21,145 bases of DNA from a virus. Each line of letters opens with the position of its first letter. Position 1 is the first letter of the stretch. The translations under genes were made by a program, and so were the position numbers. This document shows positions 12-21,032 of this stretch, in pieces. The notes under the pieces are model-generated. The model was not told where the DNA came from. It made no database searches and saw only the letters and a program-made list of their open reading frames with translations. The DNA is taken from the IMG/VR virus record IMGVR_UViG_3300035180_002012, positions 1-21,145 of that record. The stretch is one strand, 5' to 3'.

Positions 12-25
12 AAAAAATGCAACAC
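12..25 (-). repeat. GTGTTGCATTTTTT repeat, copy 1 (inverted)
   Basis: The plus strand reads AAAAAATGCAACAC, the exact reverse complement of the copies at 128-141 and 152-165. Together with copy 2 it makes a perfect inverted repeat about 100 bp apart. Such sets of short, mixed-orientation sites occur at the ends of Mu- and Tn7-type elements as transposase binding sites, but nothing here proves that role. Confidence 0.5.
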
Positions 26-127: not shown

Positions 128-141
128 GTGTTGCATTTTTT
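128..141 (+). repeat. GTGTTGCATTTTTT repeat, copy 2
   Basis: Exact 14-bp copy of the sequence at 152-165 and inverse of 12-25. It is preceded by GG, extending the match with copy 1 to 15 bp (GGTGTTGCATTTTTT). Confidence 0.5.
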
Positions 142-151
142 GTAAACAAAA

Positions 152-165
152 GTGTTGCATTTTTT
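152..165 (+). repeat. GTGTTGCATTTTTT repeat, copy 3
   Basis: Direct copy of 128-141, 24 bp downstream (a little over two helical turns), so both copies face roughly the same side of the DNA. Function unknown. Confidence 0.5.
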
Positions 166-210: not shown

Positions 211-490
211 AGCTGTTGCAAACCTGACAAAATGGCAGATTGTCAACACTAATGTCAAAATGTGAAAACTTGACAAAATTGCAGATTTTCACGAAACATC
301 TACTGTCGGAAACCTGCAAAAATTGCAGGAAACCGACACCACCTTAAAAGAAAATATGAAAACCTGCAAAAATTGCAGATTTGCATAAAAACCCTCTACC
401 TTTTAAAGAAAAGGTTGGAACCTGACAAAATGGCAGATTCCAACCATTCTAAATTTTTAGGAGAACCTGCAAAAATTGCAGATTCCGATA
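211..490. repeat. Array of six palindromic cores inside variable complementary arms (hairpin array)
   Basis: Six cores of the form ACCTG(CA/AC)AAAA(TT/TG)GCAGA lie at about 222-239, 269-285, 312-329, 362-379, 420-437 and 465-482, centre-to-centre 44-58 bp. The cores are themselves palindromic (CTGCAA-AAA-TTGCAG). Flanking arms differ from unit to unit yet pair with each other. Unit 1 pairs TGTTGCAA with 240-248 (one bulge). Unit 2 pairs GTGAAAA (262-268) with TTTTCAC (286-292). Unit 3 pairs TGTCGG (304-309) with CCGACA (333-338). Unit 4 pairs TATGAAA with TTTGCATA (one bulge). Unit 5 pairs GGTTGGAA (413-420) with TTCCAACC (438-445). Unit 6 has only weak arms. Covarying arms around a constant core point to selection on a stem-loop, in RNA or as a DNA cruciform. 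On the minus strand unit 5 is followed by TTTTCTTT and could also terminate the late transcript. Confidence 0.75.
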
Positions 491-520
491 TTTTCTCTAA
501 TCATTTTTATATGTCAGATT

Positions 521-3058
521 TTAATATTTCCTTCTCTCGTTATCTCTATTGATTTTTTCTAATACTCTTCTTATTTCTTTTTCAAGCTCTGATGCAACAT
601 TAGATGATAAATCTGATTTTGAACTTGCTGATATTGTGATATTTCCAATGTGAACTGATATATTTGATGATGTTTTTGGATTGTTTGGTGTTGTCAGTGA
701 TGTATTTAAAGATAGTTGTCTCATTGGTGCAACTGCTAAGGATAACACTTTATTCATTTTATTAATCAACGGACTTGGTTTTATTGTATCTGCTATTGTT
801 TCAATGAGTTTTATTTTGTGAAGATCTTTTAAAGCTCCTTCCTTCGCAGGTGAAAATGGCAGTAAATTTCGGATTTTCTGTGTGATGTTTTTCATTATTT
901 CTATCGGTTTATTAGCAACTGACTTAATGCCATCAACAAGTGTAGTTAATATCTTCTTGCCTGCTTCAAACAGGTTTAGGCTGGATATTGTTTTAATTGC
1001 TTCTGTGATTTTGGAAATAAAGAAAGTTATTATTGTAATATTCCAAGTAATTAGTTTTATCGGAATTGATAGTATAGTTGCTAATGCCTTTCCAAGTGCT
1101 TCAAATACTTTAAACGAGCTTGCAGTCTCTTTTATGCTGTTGCTTAAATGTTTTGTTGCATTGCTTGATTTGTTGGTTAGTGTAAAGAAAGAGCCGATAG
1201 CGTCAAAAACAGGTCTAACAACATCGAATAACTGCCTGAAAGCTTCTTTTAATGGTTGTAATGCTTTTGATAGTTCTTGTAATGCTGGAGTAATACCTTC
1301 TGTAAATCCTTTTATAAATGCAGAAATAGCTCCGAAAACGTTAGGAAAATGTGATTTAAACCAAGCCGTTATTTTGTCCCAATTTCTCCAGAGTAGATAA
1401 CCGCCTATAATTGCTCCTGTTATTGCTGTAATCAATAGACCGACTGGATTAGTTATAAATGCTAATCTAAGCATATTTAAAGCTGGAATTATCATTCTAA
1501 CAATCACGAAAGCCAATCTACCGAACATAGATATTACTCTAAATCCTGCTAAAGACAATGAAAGAAAGATACTACCAACTTTTGCAATGATACCAAGCAA
1601 TGCTAAAAAGCCTATACCACCGCCTATTATCATTGCAATAGTTGATGCTAAGGTTCTGTGATTTTCTATAATGTCTTGTATTTTAGATAAGTAATCGTTC
1701 AGTCTATTAAATACAGATGTTAGAGCAGGTGCAAACAAAGAGCCGATAGTTGCAGAAAGATTTATAAATGTTCCTTGCAACGCCTCAAAGGTATTTTTGA
1801 ATGTGTGGATAAGTCTATCTGTTCTTTCATTTACATCTGCTTGTTTTTGAATGTCAGATGCTACTTTTTCAAGTCCTGTAAATCCGCCTTTGCTAATCTG
1901 CTCTTTCATAGCTTGGTAGTCTTTTTCGTCAATCTTTTTCATTCTTAAAAGTGTATCTATATACTCCAATGCTTGTTCTTTAGTTCCATTGACTAATACA
2001 GCAACGCCTCTTAATCCTTCTGCTCCAAATAGTTCTCGCATTATCTCCATTCTTTGATTGGCATCTTTTACTTGAGAGAGTTTATCTCTTAATACTGCAA
2101 AGAATTTCTCTAATTGAAATTGTCCGTTTTCAAAGAAATCTTTTGATGAGATATTAAAAGTAATGCCTTTTTTCTGCAATTTTGCAACATTTTCGTCTAA
2201 TTTGGCTATGTTCTCTAATGCATCTTTTACAGATGTTCCTGCTGTTTCTCCTTCTAATCCCATTTTTCGCAATGCTCCAAGCAGTGTGCTAACTGTGTTA
2301 AAAGCTTCTATTCCTTTTAAATTTAAGATGTTTAATGTTGGTGCTAAATCTTTAGATGCAAAAGCTATTTCGTCCATTCTTAAGCCTGTTGCAAACTTGA
2401 CTTGTTGCAACCGATTAACAAGCTGTCCGAAGTCTTTGTCTGCAATGTTATAAGCTTCTTTAAACTTGGCTATATATTCCGCTGCTTGCTCTGTGCTTAT
2501 ATGCTCAGTATCTTTTACTAAAACCCATAATTTAGCAGATGTTTTTAAAGCTCCGTTTGCTATTGTTTCAGCTGATAGCCCGACAGTCTTTAGAGCTGTT
2601 GCCATCTCATAGTAATCCTTCGTAGAACCCGGATATAGATTTCCAAGCTCCATTACTTGTTTATTTATTTCTTTTAGATGCTTTTCATTTTCCTTTAATT
2701 CTTCAGGAGTAGCTGCGTTTTTGTTTAACATAAAAGCAACTTCTAAGTTGGCTTTCGCTTGGTCTAAATCAGCAAAAGCCCATAAACTACCACCAATTCC
2801 TGCCATCGGAACGGCAGTAGCTTTTGCTATTTCTGAAGAAAAATTATCAAGCTTATCTGAAAATTTTTTAATGTTTTCTATGTCAAAAGTTTCTTTGATG
2901 GTTTTCTGCAGTTTTTGAAATGGAGATTGCAAATTTGCAGTAGTTTCTTGAACGTTCTTTAGCTCATTTTCAAGCTTTTTGACTTGCTCCAGTGGTTGTG
3001 ATAATGCTTTTGAAAACTGGTCGAAAAGCTTTAATACTATCTCGACGTTATACTGCAT
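521..3058 (-). CDS. Tail tape measure protein
   Basis: This 845-residue protein sets tail length and is threaded inside the tail tube before DNA ejection. Residues about 85-350 resemble the conserved tape-measure core of the TP901 family, which runs through a helical region and ends near the LFGAEGLRG segment. Residues about 468-556 form a long hydrophobic stretch with several potential membrane-spanning helices, typical of tape measure proteins. The N-terminal 60 residues are helical and Lys/Glu-rich. The C-terminus is Ser/Asn-rich, then a charged helix. Its ATG overlaps the end of the frameshifted chaperone frame by a few bases and has only a weak ribosome site, so it is probably translationally coupled. 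It is the last gene before the gene-free left end. Length is normal for a contractile tail of moderate size. Confidence 0.9.
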   Translation of the reverse strand: MQYNVEIVLKLFDQFSKALSQPLEQVKKLENELKNVQETTANLQSPFQKLQKTIKETFDIENIKKFSDKLDNFSSEIAKATAVPMAGIGGSLWAFADLDQAKANLEVAFMLNKNAATPEELKENEKHLKEINKQVMELGNLYPGSTKDYYEMATALKTVGLSAETIANGALKTSAKLWVLVKDTEHISTEQAAEYIAKFKEAYNIADKDFGQLVNRLQQVKFATGLRMDEIAFASKDLAPTLNILNLKGIEAFNTVSTLLGALRKMGLEGETAGTSVKDALENIAKLDENVAKLQKKGITFNISSKDFFENGQFQLEKFFAVLRDKLSQVKDANQRMEIMRELFGAEGLRGVAVLVNGTKEQALEYIDTLLRMKKIDEKDYQAMKEQISKGGFTGLEKVASDIQKQADVNERTDRLIHTFKNTFEALQGTFINLSATIGSLFAPALTSVFNRLNDYLSKIQDIIENHRTLASTIAMIIGGGIGFLALLGIIAKVGSIFLSLSLAGFRVISMFGRLAFVIVRMIIPALNMLRLAFITNPVGLLITAITGAIIGGYLLWRNWDKITAWFKSHFPNVFGAISAFIKGFTEGITPALQELSKALQPLKEAFRQLFDVVRPVFDAIGSFFTLTNKSSNATKHLSNSIKETASSFKVFEALGKALATILSIPIKLITWNITIITFFISKITEAIKTISSLNLFEAGKKILTTLVDGIKSVANKPIEIMKNITQKIRNLLPFSPAKEGALKDLHKIKLIETIADTIKPSPLINKMNKVLSLAVAPMRQLSLNTSLTTPNNPKTSSNISVHIGNITISASSKSDLSSNVASELEKEIRRVLEKINRDNERRKY
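2175..2186. repeat. TGCAATTTTGCA palindromic 12-mer in coding sequence
   Basis: Exact copy of the scattered 12-mer within the tape measure gene, read in frame as AKLQKK; no flanking arms. A relative, TGCAAATTTGCA, lies at 2928-2939 near the start of the same gene. Confidence 0.55.
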
Positions 3059-3964: not shown

Positions 3965-5224
3965 CTATCCTGTTAGTTTCTTTAATAAATCAATGTTTAT
4001 GACTTGTTCAAATGTAATTCTTTCTGCTGGTGTAGGTGGCATAATCTCATAAGTAAATGTGAGATGTCCCATTGCTAATTGGTCTGATGGGTTTTTGTCT
4101 TTTAAGAAATAACATTTGCCATCTACTAATGCTCCTCTGCCTATCATTGTTCTTATAAATGCGTTTACCATAGATAAAACGCCGTCAATTGCTACTGTGA
4201 TTGGCTTGTCTAAAAACTGCAAAGTTGCATATTCTATGCTTTCAGCTATTATGTCAGCGGTTCTTCTTACGTTTATGAAGTTTTTAGGGTCTGTATAAGT
4301 TGGGAATGCTGATGTTCTATTTCCCCAAATTCTGTAGCCAGTGCCAAAGGAATTAAATACTGTCAATATTCCGTTTTCGTTAAGCAAGTTTGCCTCAGTG
4401 TTAGGGTCATTTATGCTTGCTGTAATTGGTCTTTCAATTCCAGTGATGCCAAGTATTTCTCTGTTTGATGGTGAAAACCAATAGCCATCATCGTGGTCTG
4501 TTTTTGCAATTACTCCTGCCAATCTTTGAGATAGTGGCTCTAATCTTTCGGAGTTTGTGGCTGTATCATAGACTTTTACGTGTGGATAACAGATAACAGC
4601 TCTATAAGAAGATGTATTTAGTTGTCCGCCAGAACCTCTTGCATTAATTACTTGTGGAACAGTCATTCCAACAGGTGCATCAATTAATGCCAATGCTCTT
4701 TTTGTCTCTGCTTTTGAAATCATAGCAGTAGCAACAGATGGAGATTCACAGAAAACAGGTGCTAATATCAATTTTGCAGTAAAGCCAAATCTTGAATATA
4801 GCTCATCTATGATTTCTAAGCCTTTTCTTTGTCCTGTTGATGAATCAATTCCGCCTATAATGTCTGATGCTTGGACTTTTGATACATCTGGTTTATTGTC
4901 TGTAGTATGAACTCTTGGGTCAAATACATTTATAACTATGCAAGTAGTCCCACCGTGGTCAAATATTGAATTTAAAGCATAAGGTATGGTGTAGTTTGGT
5001 GTAGGATTTCCAAAGTATTTAATTGCATCTTCTTTATTCAATATTAAAATTGGCTGGTTTACTACTTGATTATACCAACTGTCAGATGACATTCCAGCTG
5101 GTATTGTGTCCTGTATTGGTGCTGTTCCAACTAAAAACACAACTGCAGATTTTACTTCTCTGATTGGAACAGAGCCTTTAAGTAGTTCTATTGTTTCTAT
5201 ACCGTGCAAGTAATTAGCTGGCAT
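3965..5224 (-). CDS. Tail sheath protein
   Basis: About 419 residues; forms the contractile sheath around the tail tube. The sequence has the P2 FI/phage sheath-family layout: an N-terminal HGIETIELLKGSVPIREV beta segment, a variable inserted domain, a central YRAVICYPHVKVYD segment, a DDGYWFSPSNREILGI motif, an FGTGYRIWGNRTS motif and a C-terminal domain with LTFTYEIMPPTPAERI. These glycine/tryptophan-rich motifs are characteristic of sheath proteins. A frame-consistent TTG lies two codons upstream, but the AGGAGG at the correct distance favours the ATG at 5222-5224. The start overlaps the end of the upstream small gene, and the tail tube gene follows immediately. Confidence 0.94.
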   Translation of the reverse strand: MPANYLHGIETIELLKGSVPIREVKSAVVFLVGTAPIQDTIPAGMSSDSWYNQVVNQPILILNKEDAIKYFGNPTPNYTIPYALNSIFDHGGTTCIVINVFDPRVHTTDNKPDVSKVQASDIIGGIDSSTGQRKGLEIIDELYSRFGFTAKLILAPVFCESPSVATAMISKAETKRALALIDAPVGMTVPQVINARGSGGQLNTSSYRAVICYPHVKVYDTATNSERLEPLSQRLAGVIAKTDHDDGYWFSPSNREILGITGIERPITASINDPNTEANLLNENGILTVFNSFGTGYRIWGNRTSAFPTYTDPKNFINVRRTADIIAESIEYATLQFLDKPITVAIDGVLSMVNAFIRTMIGRGALVDGKCYFLKDKNPSDQLAMGHLTFTYEIMPPTPAERITFEQVINIDLLKKLTG

Positions 5225-5411
5225 TTTCAACTACCTCCTTTTTGGATTTTTTAGGTTCTTGTATGGCTTCTAAATAGCCAAGACCTATTAAAGTTTGAAT
5301 ATATTCATGGTCGTTAGTTGGAATATCTACTTCTTGGTTTGGATAAAGAGTATAATCAATGCCATTCAAGAAGATAATCGTCGGACAACTTGACTTTACT
5401 TTAAATTTCAT
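5214..5411 (-). CDS. Small protein upstream of sheath (possibly Mu gp38 / DUF2635-like)
   Basis: A 65-residue protein with a beta-rich N-terminus (KVKSSCPTIIFLNGIDYTLYPNQEVDIP) and a Lys/Glu tail. In Mu a small DUF2635 protein (gp38) occupies this same slot just before the sheath gene, which is the basis for the suggestion; the sequence match was judged by eye only. The gene starts at an ATG after GGAGGC and overlaps its upstream neighbour by one base and the sheath gene by about 11 bases, indicating tight coupling. Function unknown. Confidence 0.75.
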   Translation of the reverse strand: MKFKVKSSCPTIIFLNGIDYTLYPNQEVDIPTNDHEYIQTLIGLGYLEAIQEPKKSKKEVVENAS

Positions 5412-16288: not shown

Positions 16289-16975
16289 TTACCTCCCTAA
16301 TGCTTTTGCTACATTTTCAAGAATGCCTTCATTAATTTCTTGAAATCTTTTTGATGCTTGTAAAACTACAGCTACATCTATGGTTGTCCAGCCTTTGTTT
16401 TTTGCATAGTTGTAAATTGTCTTTGTGTCTGTATTTATTCCCATCTGATTTATTAGTGTTTTTACTGTGTCTTCTGTTATTGGCTGAAGTTCTTTTTTAA
16501 TTACAAGTCTTTTATGGATTGAATGCGGATAACTTGCAATGATTTTAGGAATTGTTTGGTCTCCAAGAAATACATAACTAAATGCCAAGTCTTCATCTTC
16601 TGAGAAGTCTTTTAATTCATTAAGTAGATGCTGTTTTTTCAGTAGTCTTTGAGCTTCGTCTAAGATAAAGATTGGTTTGATGTTTTTGTAAATAATATGG
16701 TGCTTGATAATGTCTAAGGTTCCTTCGTATGTATGTCTTGCTCCACAACCTAAGGAATAGCCTATTAATCTGTAAAGCTTTCCTCTTGTTATCTCGCCAT
16801 CTGGTATTTTGATATAGAAAGCCTCTTTTGATATAGATGAGATTTTTTTAGATGCTACTGTTTTTCCAGTTCCCCATTGTCCCCAGATGACAGCGTGCAT
16901 TGGCATTGATTGTTCTTCTCTTACTTTCTTGAGTGCTACAATAGTGTCTGCGATGACTTTCTCTACGTGTATCAT
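16289..16975 (-). CDS. MuB-like transposition target ATPase
   Basis: A 228-residue AAA+ ATPase directly downstream of the transposase, as MuB follows MuA. Walker A is GQWGTGKT at 32-39, Walker B is IFILDEAQRLL with D106-E107, and a sensor-like YVFLGDQ follows. The C-terminal part (LQPITEDTVKTLINQMGI and a TIDVAVVLQASKRFQEI helix bundle) is like the MuB C-terminal DNA-binding domain. MuB binds target DNA in an ATP-dependent way, activates the transposase and gives target immunity. A longer frame opens at 17065 but lacks a ribosome site; AAGGAGG lies 7 bases before the ATG at 16973-16975. The first 43 bases of the gene are duplicated just upstream (see 16987-17049). MuB itself is somewhat longer (about 312 residues), missing mainly its N-terminal HTH domain here. 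Confidence 0.88.
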   Translation of the reverse strand: MIHVEKVIADTIVALKKVREEQSMPMHAVIWGQWGTGKTVASKKISSISKEAFYIKIPDGEITRGKLYRLIGYSLGCGARHTYEGTLDIIKHHIIYKNIKPIFILDEAQRLLKKQHLLNELKDFSEDEDLAFSYVFLGDQTIPKIIASYPHSIHKRLVIKKELQPITEDTVKTLINQMGINTDTKTIYNYAKNKGWTTIDVAVVLQASKRFQEINEGILENVAKALGR

Positions 16976-16986
16976 TTTAAACCTCC

Positions 16987-17049
16987 TTAAGAAATATTTA
17001 GTTTTTGTGCTACAATAATGTCTGCTATAGCTTTCTCTACGTGTATCAT
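16987..17049 (-). CDS. 20-codon leader peptide from duplicated start of the MuB-like gene
   Basis: ATG-to-TAA frame encoding MIHVEKAIADIIVAQKLNIS. The first 43 bases are 39/43 identical to the start of the MuB-like gene 74 bases downstream, and the peptide's first 14 residues match its N-terminus except at two positions. It has its own ribosome site (GGAGG within the end of the transposase gene), and its TAA sits at the edge of the MuB-like gene's AAGGAGG, so its translation ends exactly where the next begins. It could be a relic of a tandem duplication, or a coupling/attenuation leader; the intact frame and both ribosome sites favour some function, but this is not proven. Confidence 0.6.
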   Translation of the reverse strand: MIHVEKAIADIIVAQKLNIS

Positions 17050-17051
17050 CT

Positions 17052-18518
17052 TTAGCATCCTCCAAAGAGTTTTAATGGGTCAAAGATGTCCTCAGGTTCT
17101 TCCTGAGGTGCTTCTTTTTCCACTTTTTCCACTTCTTCAGATGCTAAAATGCTCGTAATGTCTAAAATTCCTTCGTTCTTTGTCTCTTTCAGTTCTTCCT
17201 GTCTTATCTTTTCTATTTCTTCCGATAATTTAGCTTTTCTTTTTTCCATTCTTTTCTCTTTATTCTTAGCTTCTTTTAACTCTACTGTTTCTAAGCTTGG
17301 GATATCTTTAGAGATCAACACAGCATATCCAAGCTTAGTTTTTTCTTGCTCGTCCCAAACTTCAAGCTTTGTTGCATCTTCTAAATCACGGTAGCATATG
17401 ACAGTTGGAGCTTTTGCTTTCCTGCCGTATTCTCCATATCTTTCTTCTTGTCTGTAATGGAATTCATAGACAAGGTTATCAATCGTTATGCCATTGTTTC
17501 TTATAACACGAATAAATCTTTCTCTAAATGCAAGTCTAATGCTGTCTATGTCAGTTTTTCTATATGTTTGTTTTATGGCAGAATGCAAAATTTCAGGGAC
17601 TACTGGCTCGTTGAAATGTTCGAATTTATGTTCTTCTCTGTTGTATGTTTCAATGGCTGTTTTTAAAGCTTCTTCAAATGTTTGATGTGTTTTTGTGTAA
17701 TATCTGAGTTTGTCTTTTAAATCTCTGAAACTTCTTTCTATAGTTTTTTGGTTTGGTCTTCCGGGTGTTGTATTTCTATGTTTGATGTTTAGTTTTTCTA
17801 ATCCTTTCTCAATTAACTCTGTTTTTAGTATGGCTTCGTTATCTGTGATGATTTTTTCAGGTAATCCGTATTTTTCAAACAGTCTCATTAGGTATAAAGC
17901 AATATCTAAGGTAGAAAATGCTCTGTTGTAATATTGGACATTGGTATCTTCTTTTACTTCCTTATAAAAGACATCAAGGAAATAGCCTGAATATCTTTCT
18001 CTTGCTATAAATATATGGTAATGCTTTCCGCCGTTTGAATATCCAGTGGCATCTATTTCCCATTCTCTTTGATTTCTTGACAATTTGCCTTTACTGACTA
18101 TATTTTTAGATAGTTCCTTTTTGTCTAATCTTTTTCTTTGCAGTTTTTCATATGAGCCAAATTCTTCTCTTATAAAATCTCTGATAAATTTATACCAAGC
18201 TTGATATGAGCTTATGCCTGCAAATTGTAAATCCATTTCCAGCAGTTTATAAATCTGTCTAAGAGATAAAAACCTTGTTCTTCCTTTTTCTTTGTTTTTC
18301 ATAAGTAGTAATTCTTTAATTCTTGATTTCAATTCTTCTGATATTTCTATTTTTCTCTCTTTCTCTTTTTGCAGTTTTAACTCTGCATCTATCCATCTTT
18401 TTATGGTAGAGAAGTGGGCTTTTATACCCACTTTGTTTATAATTTGTTGTATTTGTCTTAAGGAATAGCCTTGTAGGAATAGTTCGTAAGCTGTTTTTCT
18501 AATTTCTGCTTTCTTCAT
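17052..18518 (-). CDS. MuA/TnsB-like DDE transposase
   Basis: A 488-residue transposase. Residues about 5-45 contain an HTH (LFLQGYSLRQIQQIINKVGI, then STIKRWIDAE) and about 60-125 a second DNA-binding region. The RNase H-like catalytic core has D156 (WEIDATGY), D226 (IITDNEA) and E261 (NQKTIERSF), with 34 residues between the last two. Residues about 340-395 form the C-terminal barrel (NGITIDNLVYEFHYR, VICYRDLEDATKLEVWDE). A charged tail follows, ending in a DIFDPLKLFGGC region that could contact the MuB-like partner, as in Mu. MuA has about 55 residues between its second Asp and Glu; the short spacing here is nearer to TnsB. All catalytic residues are present, so it should be active. Start ATG with AGAGGCTGG upstream. 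Confidence 0.92.
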   Translation of the reverse strand: MKKAEIRKTAYELFLQGYSLRQIQQIINKVGIKAHFSTIKRWIDAELKLQKEKERKIEISEELKSRIKELLLMKNKEKGRTRFLSLRQIYKLLEMDLQFAGISSYQAWYKFIRDFIREEFGSYEKLQRKRLDKKELSKNIVSKGKLSRNQREWEIDATGYSNGGKHYHIFIARERYSGYFLDVFYKEVKEDTNVQYYNRAFSTLDIALYLMRLFEKYGLPEKIITDNEAILKTELIEKGLEKLNIKHRNTTPGRPNQKTIERSFRDLKDKLRYYTKTHQTFEEALKTAIETYNREEHKFEHFNEPVVPEILHSAIKQTYRKTDIDSIRLAFRERFIRVIRNNGITIDNLVYEFHYRQEERYGEYGRKAKAPTVICYRDLEDATKLEVWDEQEKTKLGYAVLISKDIPSLETVELKEAKNKEKRMEKRKAKLSEEIEKIRQEELKETKNEGILDITSILASEEVEKVEKEAPQEEPEDIFDPLKLFGGC

Positions 18519-18519
18519 A

Positions 18520-19533
18520 TTACCAGCCTCTTTTTGCTGATTTGGATACCTCTATTGCTCTTTCTCTTGCTTCATCTAATAACTTAAAAGTTTTTTCCCA
18601 GCCAATCTTAAGAGCGATTTGATATATATGTGTGAGAAAAGTATCTTTTAGTTCATTGTATAGCTCTTCTTCTGTTGCTGGTGGTGGGTCGTTTGGTGGT
18701 CTTCCGCCATAAGATCTTTTTTGTTGGAATTCTTCTCTTTTTTGTCTGGCTAATTCTTCAAATTCTGGATCATATTCATCTTCTTTGTTAATATTTTCAT
18801 ACCATTTTCTGGCAACCTCTTCACTCATTCCTTTACTTCTTGCATACTCACGTATTTTGATATAAAGAGGGTCTTTTTCTATTTCTTCTATTTCTTCTAT
18901 TTCTTCTATTTCTTCTTCTGGTTCTTCTTCTGAGGGGGTGGGGAATTCCTGCAATTTTTGCAGGTTCTCCCCACTTATCCAATTGATAACAGTTTTGTGA
19001 TCAACATCAAGTTGTCTTGCAATCTCTCTTGAACTATATCCTTGTTCTTTTAGCTCTTTTGCCTTTTCTTTTATATCTTCTGGCTTTTCTCTTCTCTTCA
19101 CTCCTTGAACCCAGTTATAAATAGTTCTCTCACTTACTCCAAAGATTTTTTGAAGTTCTGGAATTTCCACATTTTTTGAATATAAGTTTTGGCATAAAAG
19201 CCTTTTCTCTTCTTTTGTTAATGGTATTCCGTGTCTATTCTTAGTTATTGCTAAAATCTCAGCTTCTAATATATCTTTAAGTTCTACTACTTCAGCTTTG
19301 ATTGTTGTTCTTCCAAGTCTTTTTGATGCCATAAGTCTATGCATTCCATCAATAAGCCAATATTCATCGCCTTTCTGCCAAACTGTAATAGGTGGAAATT
19401 CAGAGCCAAGTCCCATTGCTTCTTTATACTCTTCTACCTTGTCCTCTACTGTGTGAGTTTCTACTCTTGGAAGTAGTCCTTGAATGATTTCAATTTTGTT
19501 AATTGGTATTTCTCTAATGCCTAATACTTTCAT
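18520..19533 (-). CDS. ParB-like protein with two helix-turn-helix segments
   Basis: A 337-residue protein. Residues about 1-95 are a ParB/sulfiredoxin-like domain with IREIPINKI and YWLIDGMHRLMASKRLG, where D62-GMHR-66 corresponds to the nucleotide-binding G-x-HR box. Residues about 125-143 (IPELQKIFGVSERTIYNWVQ) and 167-187 (YSSREIARQLDVDHKTVINW) are two HTH units. An acidic linker with EEIEEIEEIEEIEK follows, then a C-terminal helical domain. In chromosome and plasmid partition ParB binds palindromic parS sites; in phages such proteins can also regulate transcription. No ParA is in the window. A unit of the palindrome family found at the left end lies inside this gene (18937-18974) and encodes the linker segment after HTH 2. 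Start ATG with GAAGGAGG upstream; the preceding gene ends within that ribosome site. Confidence 0.85.
   Translation of the reverse strand: MKVLGIREIPINKIEIIQGLLPRVETHTVEDKVEEYKEAMGLGSEFPPITVWQKGDEYWLIDGMHRLMASKRLGRTTIKAEVVELKDILEAEILAITKNRHGIPLTKEEKRLLCQNLYSKNVEIPELQKIFGVSERTIYNWVQGVKRREKPEDIKEKAKELKEQGYSSREIARQLDVDHKTVINWISGENLQKLQEFPTPSEEEPEEEIEEIEEIEEIEKDPLYIKIREYARSKGMSEEVARKWYENINKEDEYDPEFEELARQKREEFQQKRSYGGRPPNDPPPATEEELYNELKDTFLTHIYQIALKIGWEKTFKLLDEARERAIEVSKSAKRGW
18880..18915 (-). repeat. Four 9-bp tandem repeats encoding Glu-Glu-Ile
   Basis: TATTTCTTC occurs four times in a row on the plus strand, giving the EEIEEIEEIEEI linker in the ParB-like protein. Such runs arise by slippage and tend to vary in number. 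Confidence 0.85.
18937..18974 (-). repeat. Seventh hairpin unit, inside the ParB-like gene
   Basis: The core CCTGCAATTTTTGCAGG (18948-18964) is the exact reverse complement of the unit-3 core at 313-329. It is flanked by GTGGGGA on the left and TCCCCAC on the right, a perfect 7-bp pair unlike any arm at the left end. Minus-strand reading frame gives GENLQKLQEFPT. The element is therefore read through in frame, in the linker after the second HTH. Confidence 0.75.
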
Positions 19534-19534
19534 A

Positions 19535-19810
19535 TTAATAACCTCCTTCTAAGTATTCTTCTAAATTAACAACTACATACTTTCCTGTGTTAAGGTCTAA
19601 TCCTACGACCTCAACGATAAATCCATCTTTGTCAAGTTCTTCAAAATATACGATGTCGTCTTGGATTATAAAGGTATAATCTATTTTGTTTGATATAAGC
19701 CTCTTTACTATCTCCGCTGCCAATCTAAAACCCCTACGCTGAGGAGTTTTTGAGTAATTTACAATCTTTTGTAAAGTAAATTCTCTGTCTTTAAATATTT
19801 GTGCTATCAT
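19535..19810 (-). CDS. Small hypothetical protein
   Basis: A 91-residue protein, not recognised. Helical N-terminus (IFKDREFTLQKIVNY), a basic TPQRRGFRLAAEIVKRLI segment, then a beta-rich second half (YTFIIQDDIVYFEEL, VEVVGLDLNTGKYVVVNLEE). It lies between the RecT-like and ParB-like genes, shares ATGA with the end of the former and carries its neighbour's ribosome site at its own end, so it is a genuine member of the early operon. Presumably an accessory replication or recombination factor, but nothing in the sequence shows this. Confidence 0.75.
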   Translation of the reverse strand: MIAQIFKDREFTLQKIVNYSKTPQRRGFRLAAEIVKRLISNKIDYTFIIQDDIVYFEELDKDGFIVEVVGLDLNTGKYVVVNLEEYLEGGY

Positions 19811-20574
19811 TCTTCATTACCTCCTTCTTCTGCTATTTCTTTTATTTCAATTTTTATTTTCTCTATAATTTCTTCATAATCTTTTCTTTCAATGTCTTTT
19901 GTATGCTCTAATCCATACTCAGCTAATACACTTCTAATAATAGTTTCTACAACTTCATTGGTAAGCCCGTGTTCTTTTGCTGTGTTATTTGCAATAGCCC
20001 AAAGTCTCTTTTTCTGAGCTTCAGAGATTTTATCTTCTTTGTTTTCTGATGTTTCTTTTACTGTTTCTTTTACTGGTTCATTAATAACTGGTTCTGACAT
20101 AACCTCTGCTTCTTCATATGGTAATGATGCTGTCTCTTCTGGGAATGCCAATCTGAAAGCCTGTGCTATAGCCGTCTTTTTAAGCATGAATATTGGCATT
20201 GATTTCCAGCTTGGAGTATCTTTTTTTACTTCTGATAAATATGTACGCCATTTTAATGGGTGGCTCCAGTCCTTTCGATAGATTACCACTTCTGCGAAAG
20301 TGCCTACTGCATCTTTGCCTATTTCTACATCCCAACCATCTAAACGACCTGTCCGCTCTGCTCGTTTGATGTATTCAAGATAACTGACCACTACCTGCAG
20401 ACTATTACGAAATGGGATAAAATGACATTGTTTTTCAAGAGGATTTAATCCCATCATCTTTGCCAAATTTACAGCCTTAACTATTTCTACATCGTCAACT
20501 GATGCCAAGTGTGGAAATAAAACCCTTACCATTTCTACGATGTTGCCTTCTGTTGCCTTAACTAATGCTGTCAT
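19807..20574 (-). CDS. RecT/Bet-family single-strand annealing protein
   Basis: A 255-residue recombinase. The core (residues about 15-150) has the RecT/Bet pattern: VKAVNLAKMMGLNPLEKQCH, FIPFRNSLQVVVSYLEYIKR (the conserved I-x-G-like strand and Y-x-K-R-A segment), FAEVVIYRKDWSHPLKW, a WKSMPIFMLKKTAIAQAFRL motif and an AFPEE end. The C-terminal 100 residues are charged and helical. These proteins anneal complementary single strands, usually with a partner exonuclease; none is visible in the window, though the truncated gene at the right edge cannot be identified. Mu itself lacks a RecT. Start ATG with AAAAAGGAGGTAG; the start overlaps the preceding gene by 17 bases. Confidence 0.88.
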   Translation of the reverse strand: MTALVKATEGNIVEMVRVLFPHLASVDDVEIVKAVNLAKMMGLNPLEKQCHFIPFRNSLQVVVSYLEYIKRAERTGRLDGWDVEIGKDAVGTFAEVVIYRKDWSHPLKWRTYLSEVKKDTPSWKSMPIFMLKKTAIAQAFRLAFPEETASLPYEEAEVMSEPVINEPVKETVKETSENKEDKISEAQKKRLWAIANNTAKEHGLTNEVVETIIRSVLAEYGLEHTKDIERKDYEEIIEKIKIEIKEIAEEGGNEE

Positions 20575-20753: not shown

Positions 20754-21032
20754 TTATTTTTTGTTTACTGCTATTTGCAAAGATTTAGCTGGTTTAAACA
20801 CAACGACTTTCTTAGCTGAAATTGTGATTTCTTCTCCAGTTCTTGGATTTCTTCCTTTTCTTGCTCTTTTTTCTTTTACACCAAAAACACCAAGTCCGGG
20901 AATAGCTACTCTTTCACCTGAAATAATTACTCTAATAACTGTTTCACAGACATAACTGACAATATCGTCAGCTTGTGAAAGAGTAATGCCAAACTGCTTT
21001 TGTGTTGCTTGGATTAAGTCAAACTTTGTCAT
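20754..21032 (-). CDS. HU/IHF-family DNA-bending protein
   Basis: A 92-residue histone-like protein with the standard layout: N-terminal helices (MTKFDLIQATQKQFGITLSQ), a VAIPGLGVFGVKEKRARKGR beta segment and the RNPRTGEEITISAKKVVVFK arm that inserts into the minor groove. All signature residues are present. Bent DNA is needed for Mu-type transpososomes (host HU/IHF in Mu), so a phage-encoded copy could serve transposition or packaging. Start ATG with AAAAAGGAGGTGTAGT upstream. Confidence 0.93.
   Translation of the reverse strand: MTKFDLIQATQKQFGITLSQADDIVSYVCETVIRVIISGERVAIPGLGVFGVKEKRARKGRNPRTGEEITISAKKVVVFKPAKSLQIAVNKK

Follow-up and report, generated by a model that had tools for sequence, protein, structure and literature searches.

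What keeps the centre of a palindrome constant whilst its two arms change from copy to copy and still mirror each other? The question is raised by an array near one end of the window, by which we mean the whole 21,145-bp stretch analysed here, an IMG/VR virus record that encodes a Mu-like, contractile-tail phage (Table 1). The first-pass annotation had taken the covarying arms as the mark of a stem-loop and not of a linear protein site. That argument fails, since the arms follow, residue by residue, the recognition helix of a ParB-like protein encoded by the same phage. We put at roughly 85% the probability that the units are duplex, parS/operator-like palindromes bound by the phage's own two-HTH ParB-like protein, a reading in which binding is inferred from sequence comparison and role from location.

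Table 1. Features of the window, with the repeat units numbered U1 to U7
Feature	Position	Strand	Remarks
Phage terminus	1-175	none	'left-end' type, with three AAAATGCAACA-type repeats: 14-25 (+), 128-137 (-), 152-161 (-)
U1	214-248	+	core 224-238 CTGACAAAATGGCAG; arm type GTTG(c/a)
U2	260-294	+	core 270-284; arm type TGTGA
U3	303-339	+	core 314-328; arm type TGTCGG, the specificity type of phages G001 and L073
U4	354-388	+	core 364-378; arm type TATG; left arm altered relative to G001 counterpart
U5	412-446	+	core 422-436 CTGACAAAATGGCAG; arm type GGTTGG
U6	457-491	+	core 467-481; hybrid unit where the left-end-type array joins the tape-measure side
Tape measure	521-3058	-	
Sheath	3965-5230	-	
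MuB-like AAA ATPase	16289-17065	-	
MuA-like DDE transposase	17052-18518	-	
ParB-like tandem-HTH protein	18520-19533	-	337 aa
U7	about 18939-18973	-	GTGGGGAGAACCTGCAAAAATTGCAGGAATTCCCCAC; core 18949-18963; in ParB-like gene directly behind HTH2 codons
HTH2 motif, 19 residues	18979-19035	-	SSREIARQLDVDHKTVINW, aa 167-185; code residues H179, K180, N184
RecT	19807-20574	-	
HU	20754-21032	-	

The palindromic units in the window and in related phages

Six near-palindromic cores lie within positions 224-481 at start-to-start distances of 46, 44, 50, 58 and 45 bp, confirming the spacing first described; a degenerate form of the core matches 30 times in the window against 3.1 expected, a count reached in 0 of 100 shuffles. 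The arms of U1-U5 pair with each other as reported, and the two paired core variants (CTGCAA/TTGCAG and CTGACA/TGGCAG) are both real, with a third, TTGCAA/TTGCAA, contributed by relatives. The arms of U6 (TAGGAG / CCGATA) do not pair. A seventh full unit, U7, had been overlooked within the ParB-like gene; its arm type, GTGGGGA, is the phage's own specificity, and it is perfect over GTGGGGA/TCCCCAC.

A search of IMG/VR with the 18-base core returned 36 stretches, mostly from related phages, with nine distinct chance units in unrelated phages as a control, and further relatives were added by sheath, ParB-like and MuA searches. The resulting family comprises 63 distinct units across about 30 related virus contigs, which bears out the earlier claim of a constant core with covarying arms. 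Across the 63 units the arms pair with a score of 5.44 inside a unit, compared with 1.95 for arms taken from different units, a result reached in 0 of 10,000 permutations; the chance core matches in unrelated phages score 0.84. A standard pair count over 23 different units gives 94% paired cells, as opposed to 69% after shuffling and 26-40% with the partners slid. Pairing varies with the distance d from the core: 12/63 units pair at d=1, where A.C occurs in 42, 32/63 at d=4 and 50-60/63 at d=5-9, with a drop from d=10. Mismatches at d=4-9 are divided between G.T (16) and A.C (16). One arm altered without the other, the pattern that the first-pass annotation had held to be at odds with its proposal, is found in the terminal arrays: U4 and its G001 counterpart are unlike in the left arm only, and arms of two different types are carried by U6 and by units of L064 (203 and 297), L079 (439) and L043 (7331). 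Unit orientation is consistent in G001 and not in every phage, and for that reason was dropped as a clue.

The exact commonest core gave 16 single chance matches only in 84,980 prokaryote (GTDB) genomes, so that neither a host nor a chromosomal family was found. A search of IMG/VR with the core variant CTGACAAAATGGCAG added no new family members; its other matches are to unrelated sequences, several of which have their own tandem repeats. A phage collection searched by DNA and by MuA protein yielded no relatives.

Base 1 of the window is close to the phage end, since two contigs of the window's own phage (L046 and L071) match from base 1 inward and differ in the flanking DNA outside. In L046 a tRNA-Ser gene lies outside the phage end, followed by what, read by eye, looks like an SRP RNA. 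For the host our guess is a member of hot-spring Aquificota. The AAAATGCAACA-type terminal repeats, probably transposase end-binding sites, are spaced in the window as in the left ends of G001, L057, L073 and L049. No target-site duplication was recognisable by eye at the G001 ends, as expected for packaged host DNA.

Arm sequence and the second HTH of the ParB-like protein

The first-pass annotation had rightly picked out a ParB-like/HTH protein as the one to test. It has a ParB/Srx N-domain with a GxxR motif (G63-M-H-R66), of which G63 and R66 are invariant in 12 relatives, followed by HTH1 (about aa 107-147) and HTH2 (about aa 153-190). Pfam (including the HTH domains), PHROGs (ParB-like, E 7e-15), a PDB sequence profile and an AlphaFold model give the domain assignment, and Foldseek matches the model to the Noc/ParB/KorB fold (E 4e-8). 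In the model the residues encoded by U7 (aa 190-213) form a disordered linker with pLDDT under 50, and the C-terminus is formed by two long helices (aa 288-332) at medium confidence, a candidate for the C-terminal dimerisation domain of the clamp family. No ParA was found among the scanned neighbours (MuA-like, MuB-like AAA, RecT, HU and DnaC-like) of the window phage, which is only partly sequenced. A clade of relatives (L058, L066 and L074) has longer ParB-like proteins of about 540-558 aa, in which the N-terminal part and the embedded unit are the same and the C-terminal part is enlarged.

A unit lies directly behind the HTH2 codons of the ParB-like gene, upstream of the transposase gene, in 23/23 readable relatives; the contig of L144 ends before the place and is outside this count. 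The embedded unit is translated as NLQKLQ-like peptides in 12 phages and as PAKIAD-like peptides in 11, and this use of two reading frames argues that it is kept as DNA and not as protein sequence. Two relatives have tandem units in the linker (L141 at 1465 and 1543; L142 at 5770 and 5839), the second of which is of a shared TGTC[TC]CAT type.

Arm sequence changes with the recognition half of HTH2. Over the 23 relatives the distances between arms correlate with those between HTH2 recognition halves (Mantel r=0.62, p=1e-4; 0.63 in the first 18 phages), against r=0.21 for the N-domain, 0.25 for HTH1, 0.16 for the inter-HTH linker and 0.15 for the MuA HTH, and partial correlations controlling for the N-domain, the scaffold half or MuA remain at 0.55-0.62. 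The dependence resolves into single residues of the 19-residue motif. Residue 13 goes with the bases at d9d8 (Q with TA, 5/5; H with GG, 4/4; K with GT, 6/6; R with TG, 4/4; Y with GT, 2/2; L with GG or CC), residue 14 with d7 (K/R with G, 6/6) and residue 18 with d5 (D with G, 8/8; R with C, 3/3; K/N/V with A, except two). Residue 13 has the lowest permutation p value, 5e-5, followed by residue 18 (2e-4), residue 14 (5e-4) and residue 12 (1e-3); these values were calculated with one phage per residue combination and without a model of the phage tree. Arm bases predicted from the nearest helix are 71% identical to those observed, over a baseline of 32%. Arg-guanine and Asp-cytosine are familiar contacts, and the code is chemically sensible since, read on the opposite strand, it gives Arg-G and Asp-C pairs.

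In the gene copies the arm-HTH2 correlation is inflated by shared inheritance, because the HTH2 codons lie within about 5-60 bp of the embedded site; L100 and L109, from different clades, share the same helix, arm and core variant. Recognition beyond linkage is suggested by the action of separate residues on separate bases and by distant, unlinked units that match their phage's own type. Together these two lines of evidence reduce the worry over linkage and do not remove it. Variation in the core follows the tree of the N-domain and HTH1 and not the HTH2 helix, and a link from HTH1 to the core independent of the N-domain tree was not supported (partial r -0.15), which is why the reading of the core by HTH1 is something we infer.

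The embedded placement and the residue code thus point to parS/operator-like sites read by a symmetric dimer. Two protomers would bind a unit head to head, with HTH1 predicted to read the constant core half-site AAC-CTGCAA and HTH2, as the residue code supports, likely reading the variable arm at a distance of 5-9 bp from the core, a contact that would lie about one helical turn further out. With one and the same HTH2 contacting each side of a unit, its two arms would be mirror images, and the differences between phages would reflect diversification of HTH2 specificity. The embedded site occupies linker codons that immediately follow those of HTH2, so that a helix and its cognate site can move as a pair. 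Other copies occur next to the probable transposase sites at the ends of the phage, as well as in its early control region, and these locations suggest that the units may nucleate a KorB/Noc/ParB-like clamp, which would control early transcription and/or draw both ends into a single domain for transposition.

Unlinked sites and the make-up of the terminal arrays

Of the unlinked units, thousands of bases from the gene, 9/23 are of the phage's own arm type versus 2.5 after shuffling (p=0.003). In L057 the phage end, the control region and the gene all carry GGTTCG; G001, near-complete at 35.4 kb, has its own type, TGTCG, at each end as well as in the early control region and the gene; and L076 and L043, which are probably one phage in two contigs, have CCCGCAC in common. 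Three of the eight phages with both kinds of site (the window phage, G005 and G009) show no own type among the unlinked sites seen. In the window each of the six array units departs from the phage's own GGGGA arm at two or more of the 5 bases, and none fits the GGG.A predicted from H13, K14 and N18 of its helix; the window's GTGGGGA type is found at the end of L073. In the divergent control region of L050 there is a perfect consensus sigma-70 promoter (TTGACA-18-TATAAT, 4703-4732, minus strand) some 100 bp from a unit; its -35 and -10 do not lie under the unit, and the idea that units serve as promoter elements was rejected.

The window array appears to be a fusion with U6 near the join, as indicated by its alignments to left ends (1-287 to those of L050, L049, L057 and L073 at 82-88%; 303-390 to L050/L049 at 82-85%) and to the right-end array of G001 (345-524 at 75%), and the tape measure gene is matched from 519 onward. 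On the tape-measure side the window has a left-end-type terminus (repeat starts 14/128/152), whereas G001 has at that side a right-type end with another repeat spacing. From these comparisons the right end of the window lineage seems to have been swapped for a left end via the arrays. L055 has a ParB-like gene identical to the window's next to an HU gene (2431-2697) only 56% identical to its window counterpart, a difference that points to allele replacement. RecT, an annealing protein whose gene comes two before that of the ParB-like protein, is a possible agent of recombination at the shared 15-21-bp cores.

Such recombination probably accounts for the mixture of own and foreign specificities in terminal arrays, and the array units foreign to the phage's own helix may be left over from specificity switching, or may be functional. 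Some units outside the gene (L054 209-346 and L052 2296) are flanked by HTH-gene codons, for example WEREGLLQPAKIAGYGNANNL (translated by eye), and such extra sites therefore seem to have been copied from the ParB-like genes of other phages. A bolder suggestion, which we consider unlikely, is that the terminal arrays serve rival phages' ParB-like proteins as docking sites, with several foreign specificities kept beside the transposition ends of each phage. If so, rival-type sites would hijack, titrate or answer to the rival's protein in a shared host, and the arrays would be a record of competitors kept as sites.

Other readings and known systems

If the units were RNA or single-stranded DNA stem-loops, as in a small-RNA array or packaging/replication hairpins, complementarity would be kept to hold the stem, which would account for the strong compensatory change in the arms and for a core that can be drawn as a 6-bp stem with a 3-nt loop. 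Covariation alone is no proof of this, since a symmetric dimer site of changing specificity covaries alike, and several features of the units speak against it: the arm bases follow a protein recognition helix, the supposed helix is broken at d=1 and weak at d=4 whilst d=5-9 are strict, and hybrid units with unpaired arms persist in the arrays. A strand-specific stem should moreover prefer G.T over A.C, and the equal numbers seen favour neither strand; a scan of Rfam matched no family. We therefore judge stem-loops very improbable. Three other classes set aside by the first-pass annotation are rightly excluded: CRISPR, since every unit has arms of its own that are mirror images and the spacing is irregular; intrinsic terminators, since a single terminator-like match occurs in 1-560, where 0.3 would be expected; and attC.

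Slightly less probable still are mobile or recombination-driven palindromes (REP/RPE-like), whose arms would be complementary through templated correction at quasi-palindromes and not through selection. The occurrence of units in arrays, intergenic gaps and a gene, the recombination at cores suggested by hybrid units and array fusion, and the HTH-gene flanks of some terminal units would all suit such elements. They are, however, not dispersed in hosts, given the GTDB result, they occupy the same place in one gene in every readable relative with no empty site found, and templated correction would not tie the arms to HTH2 amino acids. Least probable of all is that the units are bound by some other protein of the phage, for instance the MuA-like transposase or a CI-like repressor: units do adjoin the probable transposase end sites and also occur in the divergent control region, but the distances of the MuA HTH and N-terminal region correlate with those of the arms at r=0.15 and 0.13 only (partial 0.12 after HTH2), and the terminal TGCAACA repeats are probably MuA's own sites.

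Sites of the phage's own ParB-like protein, the reading that we prefer, would be of wider interest because most ParB-family proteins are known with a single site that hardly varies, and here at least 10 natural specificities would be available, in which one helix rewrites the arm, the core stays constant and the cognate site is written in the gene beside the helix. This would provide a recognition code for an HTH, obtained from sequence alone and directly testable, a collection of ParB-parS-like pairs that may be orthogonal, and a way into self versus non-self discrimination by transposable phages. The case also carries a caution, that covariation within a palindrome does not by itself establish an RNA stem-loop.

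To our knowledge, no hypervariable arm has been described for OB, and KorB is without a second variable HTH; the present units differ from KorB/OB in their hypervariable arm and in a cognate site inside the protein's own gene. They resemble the KorB/OB system of plasmid RK2 in the ParB-family fold, in having several palindromic sites over one mobile element and possibly in being suited to distant repression by a CTP clamp; KorB silences promoters up to 1.5 kb away by sliding (PMC11790492). Unlike parS, the units have bipartite half-sites, a constant core with an arm of at least 10 types, and no ParA seen among the scanned neighbours. parS is nearly universal, at about 16 bp. ParB-parS and Noc-NBS share with the proposed system a palindrome read twofold by an HTH, with specificity set by few residues (PMC7383237), and a site within the gene is also seen in B. 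subtilis, where parS-359 lies inside parB (PMC4442127).

The repressors and stoperators of L5-clade mycobacteriophages are similar in having two DNA-binding domains and many sites per genome, with sites and repressor diverging together, and these repressors bind as monomers to asymmetric 13-bp stoperators (PMC6550527, PMC9283540). The units differ in being near-palindromic and in lying in both orientations to transcription, and the protein differs in being ParB-like. For phage Mu we know of no such palindrome family and no ParB-like protein. The window phage is nonetheless like Mu in being transposable, with MuA/MuB and three end-type repeats per end, and in the Mu prophage the ends are held together (PMC3820752). 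Either KorB-like silencing or Mu-like end pairing would fit the locations of the units.
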